Position numbers and translations under genes: made by a program. DNA of 7,166 nucleotides, taken from Deltaproteobacteria bacterium. Its GTDB lineage: Bacteria > JAUYMQ01. The notes below the pieces were generated by a model. That model worked only from the letters and a program-made list of their open reading frames with translations, had not been told where the DNA came from and ran no database searches. This document shows positions 284-7,166 of this stretch, piece after piece. The DNA lies in NCBI GenBank assembly GCA_030698575.1, contig JAUYMQ010000402.1, forward strand, positions 1 through 7,166. The letters run 5' to 3'. The number at the start of each line of letters is the position of its first letter. The first letter of the stretch is position 1.

Positions 284-1432
<1,149 letters not shown>

Positions 1433-1471
1433 TTTCCGTTCAGGGCACATTCAGCCCCCTGTTCGATACCT

Positions 1472-1493
1472 CGCTCCCGCGCGCCAGGGAGCG
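1472..1493 (+). other. Hairpin in the pilT / kinase-like gene gap
   Basis: A perfect 7-base-pair stem (1472-1478 with 1487-1493) surrounds an 8-base loop. It lies between the pilT stop and the GTG at 1510. There is no T tract, so it is more likely an RNA processing or translation-modulating element, or chance in GC-rich DNA, than a terminator. Confidence 0.3.
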
Positions 1494-1509
1494 CTGACAT
1501 GAGAGTCCC

Positions 1510-3303
1510 GTGCCAGCGAACGCACCCCTCGACCAGAAGACTCTGATGCGCGTTCTCGACCAGTGCACCGCAGCGGTGCTGCTGGGTGACGCGGAAGGGG
1601 TCATCACCTACGCCAACAAGGAAGCGGGCCGGCTGTTCGCCAGGCCCGTGGAGGCCCTTGTGGGGGCGCGGGTGGAGACTCTCCTGTTGCCGGATCAGCG
1701 CGGGGGCTTTCAGGAACAGTGGCAAAAGGCGCTCTCGGGGGCGCTTGTGACGGGCGTCGCGATAGAAGCACAGCGGGCCGACGGCGCGGTGGCGACTGTA
1801 GAGCTTACCCTTCTCCCGGCGGACATCGCCGGCGGGAAAGCGGTCCAGATCAACCTCCAGAACTTGGCCGGCCTGAAGGCCGCCGAGGCCCAGACCGAGG
1901 AGGTCGCGCTTCTTCTGTCGAAGCAGCGGCGGGCCCAGGCTGCATTGGCTTCGATCCAGAGGATCGTGAACAGCGGGGGCGAGGTTGTAGGCATGGCGCA
2001 GCGCTGCCTCACCGAGGCGGCCAAGGCGACCGGGGCTCAGCTCGGCCTCCTGTACACAATCGAGACTGCTGGAAAGTCGCTTTTGCAGGTGGCCTGCTAC
2101 ACGCCCGGCGAGGCTCCGCCGGAGCCGGAAGCCATCAGTCACGCGCCGGCCCTTGCGAAGCGCGCCATCACCGAGGCCCGGCCGCTCGATGGCTCCAGCC
2201 TGCCCCCGGACGCGGCCCTTCTCATCCAGACCGGAGACTGGAAGCGAAAGAGCGGCGGGATAGCCGTCCACCCGATGCGTTTCCATGGAGAGGTCATCGG
2301 GGCTCTCTTGCTTGCCGGACTGCGGCCCTTTTCACACGAGGACACCGAACTGATCGTGCTTCTGGCGGATCAGATCGCGTTCGTCATCGCTCATGCCCGC
2401 ATTCTTTCGAGGGCGGAATCGATGGCTGAAGATCTTTCGCTCAGCCAAAAGCTTCTCGAGGGGCACGACACCGAACTCTTGCGGCGTAGCGAGGAACTGC
2501 TCAACCAGGACGTGGAGCTTCTGGAGAAAAACGAGAAGCTCGAGAAAGTGGAAAAGCTAAAGCGTGACTTTCTGGAGAAGATGTCCCGCGAGATGCGCAC
2601 TCCGCTCAACCGAATCGTTCAACATCTGATCTCCATTCTTTCGAACGAAGAGGAACAGATGTCAGACGAGTCGATGGAGCACTTGCGGGGGGCCCTTGGA
2701 GAGGGAACGGCCTTCTCGCGCACGCTAAACAACATTGTCGACCTCTGGCGGCTTCGGGAGCAGCAGGTGCCGGTGGACTCCAAGCAGGTTCACTTCGAGG
2801 CGGTGGTCGACGAGGCTATCCATCACGTGCAGCAGGTCGCGCTCGAGCGAAACGTGACCATCGAAAAGGATCTGGACGGGGTGATGGGCCCCATCAAGAC
2901 GGATCTCGGAAAGCTCACCCAGATCATGACCGAGATCATCGGAAACGCCGTAAGGTTCACGTCCAACGGCAATGTGACGATCGTGGCCGAGTCGAACAAC
3001 GATGCTCTGGTCTGCAAAGTCGCCGACACCGGCATAGGTATCGCGGCCGACGATCTGCCAAGGGTCTTCGACGAGTTCTTCCAGGTTGATGAGAGCGCCA
3101 GCAGCGGATTCAACGGAGCCGGGCTGGGCCTCTGCATCGCGAAGCATCTTGCCGAGCTCATGGGCGGGGAGATCAGGATCGAGAGCGAGATCGGGCGCGG
3201 CAGCGTGCTGACCTTGACTCTTTCCCAGCCGAACCAGTCGAAATCCTCGCGACGCGGAGACGGGCTGGGAGCCCTCCTTCCGGGCTCCGCGGGAGGCGGG
3301 TAG
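1510..3303 (+). CDS. PAS-GAF histidine-kinase-like protein lacking the phosphoacceptor His
   Basis: This 597-residue soluble protein has no membrane segments. The domains in order are PAS-like (about 12-120), GAF-like (about 145-300), a charged coiled coil (about 305-355), HisKA-like (about 353-418) and HATPase_c (about 425-572), then a Ser/Gly-rich tail. The ATP-binding domain looks intact: N box with N479, G1 box DTGIGI (506-511), F box FDEFF (520-524) and G2 box GAGLGL (536-541). The H box reads FLEKMSREMRTPLN (354-367), so Arg360 (codon CGC, 2587-2589) stands where the phosphorylated His of the usual SHE[LM]RTPL belongs. As read, it cannot autophosphorylate by the standard route. The start is GTG at 1510 with a weak GAGAG (1501-1505) before it; ATG 1546 is a possible alternative. 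No receiver domain or response regulator is in the window. Its place between a pilus ATPase and a PATAN-like protein suggests a role in pilus control (inference). Confidence 0.9.
   Translation: MPANAPLDQKTLMRVLDQCTAAVLLGDAEGVITYANKEAGRLFARPVEALVGARVETLLLPDQRGGFQEQWQKALSGALVTGVAIEAQRADGAVATVELTLLPADIAGGKAVQINLQNLAGLKAAEAQTEEVALLLSKQRRAQAALASIQRIVNSGGEVVGMAQRCLTEAAKATGAQLGLLYTIETAGKSLLQVACYTPGEAPPEPEAISHAPALAKRAITEARPLDGSSLPPDAALLIQTGDWKRKSGGIAVHPMRFHGEVIGALLLAGLRPFSHEDTELIVLLADQIAFVIAHARILSRAESMAEDLSLSQKLLEGHDTELLRRSEELLNQDVELLEKNEKLEKVEKLKRDFLEKMSREMRTPLNRIVQHLISILSNEEEQMSDESMEHLRGALGEGTAFSRTLNNIVDLWRLREQQVPVDSKQVHFEAVVDEAIHHVQQVALERNVTIEKDLDGVMGPIKTDLGKLTQIMTEIIGNAVRFTSNGNVTIVAESNNDALVCKVADTGIGIAADDLPRVFDEFFQVDESASSGFNGAGLGLCIAKHLAELMGGEIRIESEIGRGSVLTLTLSQPNQSKSSRRGDGLGALLPGSAGGG
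3268..3288 (+). other. Hairpin just upstream of the DUF4388 gene RBS
   Basis: GGAGCCC (3268-3274) pairs perfectly with GGGCTCC (3282-3288) around a 7-base loop. It sits inside the last codons of the kinase-like gene and 2 bases before the GGGAGG ribosome binding site. CCTCC at 3273-3277 could alternatively pair with GGAGG at 3292-3296, so it might modulate coupled translation. That role is speculative. Confidence 0.3.
3291..3296 (+). promoter_or_regulatory. Ribosome binding site for the DUF4388 gene
   Basis: GGGAGG is placed 8 bases before the GTG at 3305. It supports a GTG start only 1 base after the stop of the preceding gene, which implies translational coupling. Confidence 0.7.
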
Positions 3304-3304
3304 C

Positions 3305-4570
3305 GTGGGCGACCAGGGAACGCGCGGCGGGCCGGATCAGGACACGCAGCCGCTCTATCGCTTCGCCAGCCTTGGTGAAAACCACGTCGTCTGCCGGCGC
3401 GAGGGGCCCTACCCCAACGATCGAATCACCGACACATCACGAATTCTCCTGAGCGGCGATCTGGCCATTATCGAAGTCGCGGACCTTGTCAACTTCCTGA
3501 GCATGTCGCGGCTCACGGGCATCCTTCTTCTCATCATCGATGGAAATCACGAAAAGAGCCTCCATTTCAACAAAGGCGAGCTGGTCTTCGCGAGCTCGAG
3601 CGCCTCGGAAGACCGACTCGGCGAGGTCCTGGTCCGCCTGGGCCAGCTAAATCAGCGGCAGCTCGAGGCCGTAAGCATCAAGTTCCCGGGCAACATGAAG
3701 ATTGGCCGTTTCCTCGTCCAGCAGGAGCTGATAAGTCCCCAGGGCCTCTGGGAGGGCATCCGCCAGCAGGTGCGCGAAATCTTCTTTGGCTTTCTGGAGG
3801 CGGAACACGGCGTGTTCTTCCTCCTCGACGCGCGCCCGTCGGCCAGCGAGGAGTTGAACCTCTCCCTGACGACGCACAACCTTCTGCTCGAGGGAGTTCA
3901 GCGGAAGGACGAGCTTGCACACTTCAGGAAACGCATTCAGAACGACGAGGTTATCCTCCGCAAGCGCCACCCGCTCCCCACGAAGGAGCTGACGGCCAAC
4001 GAGCGGCGGCTTCTCAATCTCGTGGACGGGAAGCAGGACATTTCGCAGCTTTCCAGGCTCTCACAGCTCGAGCGTTTCATTACCCTGAAGACCCTCTTCC
4101 ATCTCATGCAGACGGGATTCGTCGAGATCTGCGACACGTCCGTGGAAGAGCCGCCCCGCGTGGAGAAGGCATCGACAGACGAGCCCGGTGCGATCGCCGA
4201 CGAGCGCCAGTTGCGGGACATCGTCGGGGTGTTCAACGAAATCTATGTCGAGGTGCTCCAGGCGCTCACCCAGAAGATGCCGGCGGCGGGGGCCCTCAAA
4301 ACGCTCAACGCTTTCTTCCAGAACCCGGAGCCGCACCTGGTCCCCCTCTTCCGGGGTATCAAGCTCGGGGGGGGTGGCACGCTGGACGCAAGCGCCCTGC
4401 TCCGAAATCTGCGCGCCATGACCTCCGCCGACGCGGGCACCTGCCTGACGGACGGGCTGAAGGAGCTGTTCTTCTTCTGCGTCTTCGAGGCCACGAGCCG
4501 CCTCGACCCTTCCGCCGAGGAAGCCCTTCTCGAGCGCGTCCAGAAACTTCAAAAGAACCTGCGAGGTTGA
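3305..4570 (+). CDS. DUF4388 / PatA N-terminal-like (PATAN) protein
   Basis: This 421-residue cytoplasmic protein has no signal peptide or membrane segments. After a polar N-terminus of about 45 residues, residues 48-200 match the DUF4388 pattern: an opening like LSGDLAIIEVADLVNFLSM (49-67), a TGILLL strand (71-76), GELVFASS (91-98), then the LGEVLVRLGQL and IGRFLVQQELIS helical repeats (105-145). Residues 229-275 resemble the small helical, winged-helix-like segment that often follows DUF4388. Residues 300-421 are helical and unassigned. In cyanobacteria, PATAN-bearing regulators control type IV pilus motors, PixE by binding PilB1. That fits a gene 1 base after a sensor-kinase-like gene and in line with a pilus ATPase. 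No receiver domain is fused to it here. The family call is fairly firm; the role is inferred from context. Confidence 0.82.
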   Translation: MGDQGTRGGPDQDTQPLYRFASLGENHVVCRREGPYPNDRITDTSRILLSGDLAIIEVADLVNFLSMSRLTGILLLIIDGNHEKSLHFNKGELVFASSSASEDRLGEVLVRLGQLNQRQLEAVSIKFPGNMKIGRFLVQQELISPQGLWEGIRQQVREIFFGFLEAEHGVFFLLDARPSASEELNLSLTTHNLLLEGVQRKDELAHFRKRIQNDEVILRKRHPLPTKELTANERRLLNLVDGKQDISQLSRLSQLERFITLKTLFHLMQTGFVEICDTSVEEPPRVEKASTDEPGAIADERQLRDIVGVFNEIYVEVLQALTQKMPAAGALKTLNAFFQNPEPHLVPLFRGIKLGGGGTLDASALLRNLRAMTSADAGTCLTDGLKELFFFCVFEATSRLDPSAEEALLERVQKLQKNLRG

Positions 4571-4638: not shown

Positions 4639-5442
4639 GTGCTGCTTTCGAGCCTTAATTTTGGAGCCGCTGTCCCCCTGCTGCTGCTCGCCCTGGCCGC
4701 CGCCCCTTCCGCCATCGCCGCGGACCAGGCGTCGGAAGCCACGCGCCTCGAGGCCGAGGCTGAGACGCTCTGGAACCGCCGGGACGAGCCCGCCAGCATG
4801 CGGAGCGCGCTCGATCTCCAGGAGCGCATCGCGGCGGTCGTTCCACGGGACGCGAGGGCTCAGGCCAACCTTGCGAGGGCCTACTGGTGGTACGCGCACC
4901 TCCTCCCGGCCGCCAATGTGGCCGAGAGGCGGGAGCTGTATCGGCAGGGGGCCGGAGCGGCGCGGCGGGCCCAGGCTCTCGCTCCGGCTGAACCGTCGGG
5001 ATACTTCTGGGAGGCGGCCAATCTCGTCGAGGCAATTACAATCGGGCGGCGGTTCGTTCCGCCGGATGATGTCTTCCGGATCCGTAAACTCGTCGGCGAG
5101 GTCAACGCCCGCAACGCCTGGTATCAGCACGGCTCGATCCGCTACGTCGAGGCGGTGCTCATCCTCCGGCTGCCGGCGCCGGAGCGATGGATGATCGGAC
5201 GGCGCCTCTCGTCCGCGGTGGATCTCGCGATGGGCGCCCTCGGCTTCGAGAACAACTGCTTCTACGGCCACTGGGTGCTCGCCCAGGCGCTGGCCGCCAC
5301 GGGGCGCCGGCGGGCGGCCATCGTCCAGCTCGATTCGATTATCGATGGAAACCCCGAAGGATTCCTTCCGGACGCCCCCGAGAACCGGGTGGTGCGGAAA
5401 TGGGCCATTACCTACCGCGAGGAGCTGGCTGCGGCGCGCTGA
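4639..5442 (+). CDS. Secreted helical-repeat (TPR-like) protein, TatT-like
   Basis: This 267-residue protein is predicted to be exported. A hydrophobic segment (11-22) is followed by an A-x-A signal peptidase site (A25-I26-A27), so the mature part is periplasmic. The rest is alpha-helical and Ala/Arg/Leu-rich with TPR-like spacing: an NLARAYWWYAHLL helix (77-89), an arginine-rich helix ending in LAPAEPSGYFWEAANL (114-129), and a later HWVLAQALAATGRRRAAIVQLD repeat (211-232). The layout recalls TatT/TP0956-type periplasmic TPR proteins associated with some TRAP transporters, but no TRAP transporter gene is in the window. The GTG at 4639 is the only normal start after the in-frame TAA at 4582; GAGAG at 4628-4632 may serve as its RBS. 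With this start the signal peptide has no positive charge before its hydrophobic core. Secreted TPR-like is fairly sure; the specific family is tentative. Confidence 0.75.
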   Translation: MLLSSLNFGAAVPLLLLALAAAPSAIAADQASEATRLEAEAETLWNRRDEPASMRSALDLQERIAAVVPRDARAQANLARAYWWYAHLLPAANVAERRELYRQGAGAARRAQALAPAEPSGYFWEAANLVEAITIGRRFVPPDDVFRIRKLVGEVNARNAWYQHGSIRYVEAVLILRLPAPERWMIGRRLSSAVDLAMGALGFENNCFYGHWVLAQALAATGRRRAAIVQLDSIIDGNPEGFLPDAPENRVVRKWAITYREELAAAR

Positions 5443-5957: not shown

Positions 5958-6629
5958 GTGCGTAGCCGCGACCTGACTCCCGCCGACACCCCGCTGATCC
6001 TCCGCGCCCTGCGCCGGCACGCGCAGGGGCACCGCCTCCCCTCTCTCTCGATGGTCGCGGAACAGCGGCGCGACCCCTTTCTTATCCTGACGGGCTGCAT
6101 CCTTTCGCTGCGCACAAAGGACGAGACCACGCTGCCAGCGGCCGAGCGGCTCTTCGCCCTGGCCGATACGCCGGCGCGCCTTCGGCGTATCTCCGTGAAG
6201 CGGATCGAACGCGCCATCTATCCGGTCGGATTCTATCGTACCAAGGCCCGGACCCTCAGGACCCTCGCCGCGCATCTGCTATTGCATCACGCCGGCAAGA
6301 CGCCCGATACGCTGGAGGAGCTTCTTGCCATCAAGGGGGTCGGGCGAAAGACAGCGAACCTCGTGTTGACCCTCGGCTTCGGCAAGCCCGGCATATGTGT
6401 CGACACGCATGTGCATCGAATCTCGAACCGCTGGGGGCTCGTCACGACGCGGACGCCCGAGCAGACGGAGATGGCCCTGCGCGAGAAGCTCCCCCGGAGG
6501 TACTGGATCGAATACAACGATCTTCTGGTCACCTTCGGAAAGACCCTCTGTCACCCCCTGTCGCCGAAATGCAGCATCTGTCCGGTGCGCGCTCGCTGCC
6601 CGCGGCGAGGCGTGAAGCGGTCCCGGTGA
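5958..6629 (+). CDS. nth: Endonuclease III (HhH-GPD DNA glycosylase/AP lyase)
   Basis: This 223-residue base-excision-repair enzyme removes oxidised pyrimidines and nicks at abasic sites. The fold signature ILTGCILSLRTKDETT (43-58) is followed by the helix-hairpin-helix IKGVGRKTAN (125-134) with the catalytic Schiff-base lysine K131. The catalytic aspartate is D149 in VDTHVHRISNR (148-158). The [4Fe-4S] cluster cysteines are C198, C205, C208 and C214, with the exact C-x6-C-x2-C-x5-C spacing. Length is normal for the family. An in-frame TAG at 5946 forbids an earlier start, so GTG 5958 is the first possible codon; no good RBS precedes it. The gene is probably transcribed on its own and is not functionally tied to its neighbours. 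All catalytic residues are intact. Confidence 0.93.
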   Translation: MRSRDLTPADTPLILRALRRHAQGHRLPSLSMVAEQRRDPFLILTGCILSLRTKDETTLPAAERLFALADTPARLRRISVKRIERAIYPVGFYRTKARTLRTLAAHLLLHHAGKTPDTLEELLAIKGVGRKTANLVLTLGFGKPGICVDTHVHRISNRWGLVTTRTPEQTEMALREKLPRRYWIEYNDLLVTFGKTLCHPLSPKCSICPVRARCPRRGVKRSR

Positions 6630-6655
6630 GCGCTTTTACCGCGGTGCGATTCAAT

Positions 6656-6684
6656 TTGACCGGGATGGGGCTTCCGGGTAGGAT
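6656..6684 (+). promoter_or_regulatory. Sigma70-type promoter of a small RNA
   Basis: TTGACC (6656-6661) and TAGGAT (6679-6684) are separated by exactly 17 bases, the best promoter match in the window. It predicts a start near 6690-6692. No protein-coding start that I can support follows. Confidence 0.65.
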
Positions 6685-6690
6685 CCCTCG

Positions 6691-6903
6691 GGACTGCCTG
6701 GTACGCGATGGCCGGTTGCAATTTCTACCCTCATGCTCAAAACCGGGATCCGTTCCTCGCTGCTGAGTGTCTTCCGCCCAGTGCGGAAAACCGGACGCAC
6801 GCGACACGGAGCCCACCTGGTAATACAGGGTTTAAATTCACTGGCCACGTCGGCCGTGGCGGTTACCCCATGCAAGAGGCGGCTCCCCGGAGCCGCCTTT
6901 CGC
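6691..6903 (+). ncRNA. Putative structured small RNA, rod-shaped, possibly 6S-like
   Basis: About 210 bases lie between a good promoter and a hairpin terminator, with no credible reading frame. The whole transcript folds into one nested rod. Pairings from the outside in are: 6695-6697 with 6872-6874; 6700-6703 with 6864-6867; 6704-6706 with 6859-6861; 6708-6715 with 6850-6857 (8 pairs, two of them G-U); 6720-6724 with 6834-6838; 6727-6731 with 6827-6831; 6743-6747 with 6816-6820; 6753-6756 with 6808-6811; 6767-6771 with 6803-6807; and an apical hairpin 6772-6777 with 6783-6788. Internal loops lie between the stems. A long closing stem, an interrupted middle and an apical hairpin in about 185 bases plus terminator is the general plan of 6S RNA, the RNA polymerase-binding regulator. 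I found no sequence signature to prove that class; it could be another regulatory RNA. Confidence 0.5.
6877..6903 (+). terminator. Rho-independent terminator of the small RNA
   Basis: AGGCGGCTCC (6877-6886) and GGAGCCGCCT (6889-6898) are perfect complements, giving a stem of 8 to 10 pairs. TTTCGCTTT follows (6898-6906). The T tract is broken but lies on the plus-strand side only, so this ends the plus-strand transcript. Confidence 0.62.
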
Positions 6904-6948
6904 TTTGTGCCTGGACATCGAAGAGAGAGACCGGAGAGAAGAGGCGGC

Positions 6949-6987
6949 AAAAAAAGCGAAGCCCCCGGAACGCAGGTTCCAGGGGCT
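6949..6987 (-). terminator. Rho-independent terminator of the PEP-CTERM gene
   Basis: On the minus strand a stem of 6 plus 5 pairs with one mismatch (6960-6965 with 6982-6987, 6967-6971 with 6976-6980, four-base loop) is followed by TTCG, C and seven T (plus-strand A run 6949-6955). It lies 51 bases after the stop of the minus-strand gene. Confidence 0.78.
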
Positions 6988-7038
6988 CTGCTATTTCGGA
7001 GACCGCCCCCGCTCAGGCGGCCCTTGCTGGGGAGGAGG

Positions 7039-7166
7039 CTATTTGCGACGCCGCCGGAGCCGCGCGAGGCCGGCCAGGCCCGCACCCAGGAGCGCGATGG
7101 AGCCTGGCTCCGGAAGCTGGAACTCGGCCGAGGCCCTTCCCTTCGACTTCACGTTGAAGAGATCGA
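7039..7166 (-). CDS. C-terminal end of a PEP-CTERM sorted surface protein (partial)
   Basis: The 3' end of a minus-strand gene runs in from the right edge; its stop (TAG) is at 7041-7039, and 41 codons are visible. They form a textbook PEP-CTERM sorting signal: a LPEP box (visible residues 17-20), a hydrophobic helix rich in Ala, Gly and Leu (about 22-34), and a terminal basic cluster RRRRK (37-41). Such tails are recognised by exosortase (EpsH/XrtA family) in the inner membrane, which cleaves at the PEP motif to release or anchor the protein at the cell surface, usually together with exopolysaccharide production. Nothing of the main domain is in view, so its role is unknown. The gene has its own terminator downstream and points toward the small-RNA unit. 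Confidence 0.85.
   Translation of the reverse strand, partial: DLFNVKSKGRASAEFQLPEPGSIALLGAGLAGLARLRRRRK

Follow-up and report, generated by a model that had tools for sequence, protein, structure and literature searches.

Which gene, if any, occupies the gap between an endonuclease III-like gene (5958-6629, + strand) and a convergent gene on the - strand for a PEP-CTERM exosortase-sorted protein (from about 7039 to 7166 in the window, i.e. the whole 7,166-nt stretch of DNA analysed; L002:643-1332)? A sequence-only reading had proposed an orphan structured small RNA without any known sequence signature, either a divergent 6S RNA or a new family. 6S RNA is a small RNA of many bacteria that restrains the main RNA polymerase as growth slows. 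The check suggested by that reading, a comparison with the Rfam 6S model, confirmed the 6S lead: scanning the whole window with Rfam returned a single match, to RF00013 (6S RNA), at 6688-6869 on the + strand, covering the model over its full length (positions 1-187 of 187) with a score of 64 bits (E 2.8e-11; curated cut-off, 46.4 bits). So as not to depend on one model alone, we built a separate covariance model, R1, from 15 distant 6S genes of other bacterial genomes that were aligned without the window, and R1 likewise recovered the locus (44.5 bits, E 6e-10) while matching nothing in 80 other nth loci. As its 64 bits fall inside the range spanned by 6S genes in the other genomes searched (31.8-106.9 bits), the window gene is no outlier among them. 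We thus have very little doubt that the gap holds a canonical 6S RNA gene (ssrS, RF00013) of ~180 nt with its own sigma-70-type promoter and its own terminator. The gene is genuine and ordinary, without unusual features.

A new family of structured small RNAs, 6S-like in shape alone, might have been entertained for an isolated lineage such as this one, for which the genome collection searched contained no other genome of the same phylum. The location of the gene could be read the same way, since a 6S gene beside nth was found in other bacteria neither by Rfam (20 loci) nor by R1, whose search of the 80 other nth loci yielded nothing at E ≤ 1. However, the full-length curated match in both sequence and structure refutes this alternative in practice, and conserved 6S motifs such as CCCACCTG as well as the independent recovery by R1 leave it with next to no probability. 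Given the above-cut-off match and the R1 result, "orphan" and "new family" have to be dropped from the earlier description, and the supposed lack of a known sequence signature was an error.

The predicted structure of the RNA is in line with this assignment. The segment 6690-6869 has a predicted folding energy of -76.2 kcal/mol, lower than that of 199 among 200 dinucleotide shuffles (z = -3.3), and standard base pairs occupy 43 of the 49 pairs of the 6S consensus, giving a rod made up of a closing stem, a central bubble and an apical arm. Of the 49 consensus pairs with a base on each side, 41 recur in the minimum-energy fold, which was predicted with no reference to the family. In the closing stem, 6689-6706 pairs with 6850-6867, the 3′ strand of which carries the conserved (A/T)CGGC motif; a bubble-adjacent, P2-like helix (6720-6731 with 6827-6838) follows, whose 5′ strand also comprises most of the predicted template for product RNA (pRNA) synthesis. 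The central bubble is formed by 6732-6744 on its 5′ side and 6815-6826, part of the conserved CCCACCTG motif, on its 3′ side, and the apical arm with its terminal loop (6745-6814) is opened by invariant GG/CC pairs, all on the + strand.

Covariation among 22 homologues, aligned by sequence only, supports these helices: the score was 0.327, compared with 0.168 in shuffles (reached by none of 500) and 0.107-0.199 when the structure was slid along the alignment, a control that is somewhat favourable because the homologues were gathered with the Rfam model itself and the tested structure was projected from the window's own match. The shuffle control and the closing stem that RNAalifold drew from a window-free alignment agree with the covariation result. 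Changes on both sides were seen in 33 of the 43 pairs in the homologue alignment, including 10 of 14 in the closing stem, where 74% of cells were paired. By fold z-score, consensus and covariation, the structured RNA gene perceived on the + strand is real. Two helices had been named as its test, and they fared differently. The pairing 6720-6731/6827-6838 is the 6S helix beside the bubble (64% of cells paired in homologues; covariation 0.251 vs 0.154 in shuffles) and survives along with the overall structure, whereas 6708-6715/6850-6857 fails, being in the wrong register: in the 6S consensus, 6850-6857 pairs with 6698-6706, and among homologues the proposed pairing stood out little or not at all from the shuffle control (36 to 346 of 500 shuffles reached the observed values).

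Upstream of the RNA, a sigma-70-type promoter (TTGACC-17-TAGGAT; 6656-6684, + strand) is the sole match of its type within 6000-7166 (0.2 expected in shuffles). The promoter and its 17-base spacer are as first described, but it agrees with the consensus at 9 of 12 bases, a decent match for which "near-ideal" is too strong. Downstream, the intrinsic terminator was also correctly recognized: 6872-6906 (+ strand) forms a G+C-rich hairpin (-23.1 kcal/mol; z = -4.3) with a TTTCGCTTT tail after it. A simple terminator scan did not list this hairpin, probably because the extended stem consumes part of the T tract. Another terminator-like site lies at 6959-6988 on the - strand, near the PEP-CTERM gene. 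Family membership by sequence and structure, covarying helices, bubble anatomy, and promoter and terminator motifs are what the analysis shows at this locus.

6S RNA mimics an open promoter and holds the housekeeping holoenzyme until it is released through pRNA synthesis (PMC8876501, PMC8414754). By analogy with the family, we infer that the window's 6S RNA would do the same, holding sigma-70 RNA polymerase and releasing it by pRNA synthesis; RpoD-family sigma factor genes occur in the genome. Under this model, the RNA would mimic an open promoter and, upon growth slowdown, bind the RNA polymerase holoenzyme carrying the housekeeping sigma factor; copying of the RNA by the polymerase, with a start opposite about U6734, would then yield short pRNAs that refold the RNA and bring about its release. 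At the edge of the bubble we looked for a template whose pRNA would have GG at positions 4/5 or 5/6, the latter being a hallmark described for other 6S RNAs (PMC8414754). The predicted start opposite U6734 gives 5′-AUGAGGGUAGAAAUUGC (beginning AUGAGGGUAG...), with GG at positions 5/6, which is a weak test because the start was itself placed by analogy with known 6S RNAs.

The assembly contains a second RF00013 match, on contig C171, scoring 62.3 bits (43.7 bits with R1) and thus, like the window gene, above the Rfam cut-off. The C171 sequence is 96% identical to the window over 481 bp and stops at window position 6685, which places the promoter outside the compared stretch. Both copies lie at contig ends, both adjoin the same PEP-CTERM gene, and the final 88 bases of the window (7079-7166) are exactly identical to C171, with about 4-7% divergence just before; such an exact overlap after a diverged stretch in itself points to an assembly of mixed strains. 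Taken together, contig ends, shared neighbour and identical bases make strain variation in this metagenome-derived assembly likely, and the C171 copy most probably represents this locus in another strain. That the genome instead carries two nearly identical 6S genes from a recent duplication is improbable. We consider it equally doubtful that C171 represents a second gene elsewhere in the same genome, so that the two would form a 6S-1/6S-2-like pair or one would be degenerate: two above-cut-off copies of such similarity in one assembly would suit this explanation, but copies at contig ends with 88 shared bases are what is expected where an assembler splits strain versions, the same PEP-CTERM gene lies beside both, and the similar scores indicate that neither copy is degenerate.

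Comparing what are probably two strain versions, the 6S gene differs by 4 substitutions in 179 nt and the next 209 positions by 14 substitutions and one indel; by this comparison, the gene changes more slowly than its flank, a point in favour of the 6S assignment. Within the RNA, C6732A lies in the bubble and leaves the GG of the predicted pRNA intact, while pairing is kept by a G-C to G-U change at 6700/6855 and a G-U to G-C change at 6692/6864. A6799T, on the other hand, breaks the A-U pair 6761/6799 in the apical arm and counts against the 6S assignment.

The same alignment bears on whether the gap might instead encode a short protein, since open frames of 95-149 amino acids cross it on both strands. 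Long open frames are expected from a G+C-rich composition, and frames of such length are no exception; a Pfam search of the frames gave no match, and most of the 16 substitutions between the copies in the 149-aa frame change a residue (12 of 104 residues differ). On the latter two grounds short protein-coding genes were rejected, and we regard a coding gap as exceedingly improbable.

The upstream endonuclease III-like gene has an HhH-GPD domain match, and its top NCBIfam match is nth, with a score under the NCBIfam cut-off; its product is at most 68% identical to named relatives, which are spread over Nitrospirota, Binatota, Rokubacteria and others. The PEP-CTERM protein ends in LPEPGSIALLGAGLAGLARLRRRRK. 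Farther upstream, 284-4570 encodes, on one strand, a PilT/PilU-family pilus ATPase and after it a PAS-GAF histidine kinase and a DUF4388 protein, possibly a twitching-motility control cluster, and 4639-5442 encodes a 267-aa protein with a signal-peptide-like start that matched nothing in Pfam and NCBIfam searches. A search of the assembly for 16S rRNA found none, and a distant blastn search with the gap against plasmids returned no match.

The locus adds one more 6S RNA, from a poorly sampled uncultured lineage, and fits the broad spread of this RNA. It also illustrates that a structural reading by eye can be largely correct, with a standard Rfam search answering the remaining part at once. 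Among known systems, Ms1 RNA of Actinobacteria shares the 6S-like rod and binds RNA polymerase (PMC9130861); unlike the RNA in question, for which 6S is the sole family to pass the Rfam cut-offs, Ms1 binds core polymerase and was described from Actinobacteria. The likeness to 6S RNA (SsrS, RF00013) extends from the length of ~180 nt, closing stem, central bubble and apical arm to the conserved GGG/CCCACCTG and (A)CGGC motifs, the predicted pRNA template with GG at 5/6, the sigma-70-type promoter and the terminator. Its differences, namely the position between nth and a PEP-CTERM gene and, as a minor point, CTACCCTCAT in place of the TTGAGCCAACA that many homologues carry at the edge of the bubble, are not noteworthy beside these shared features.
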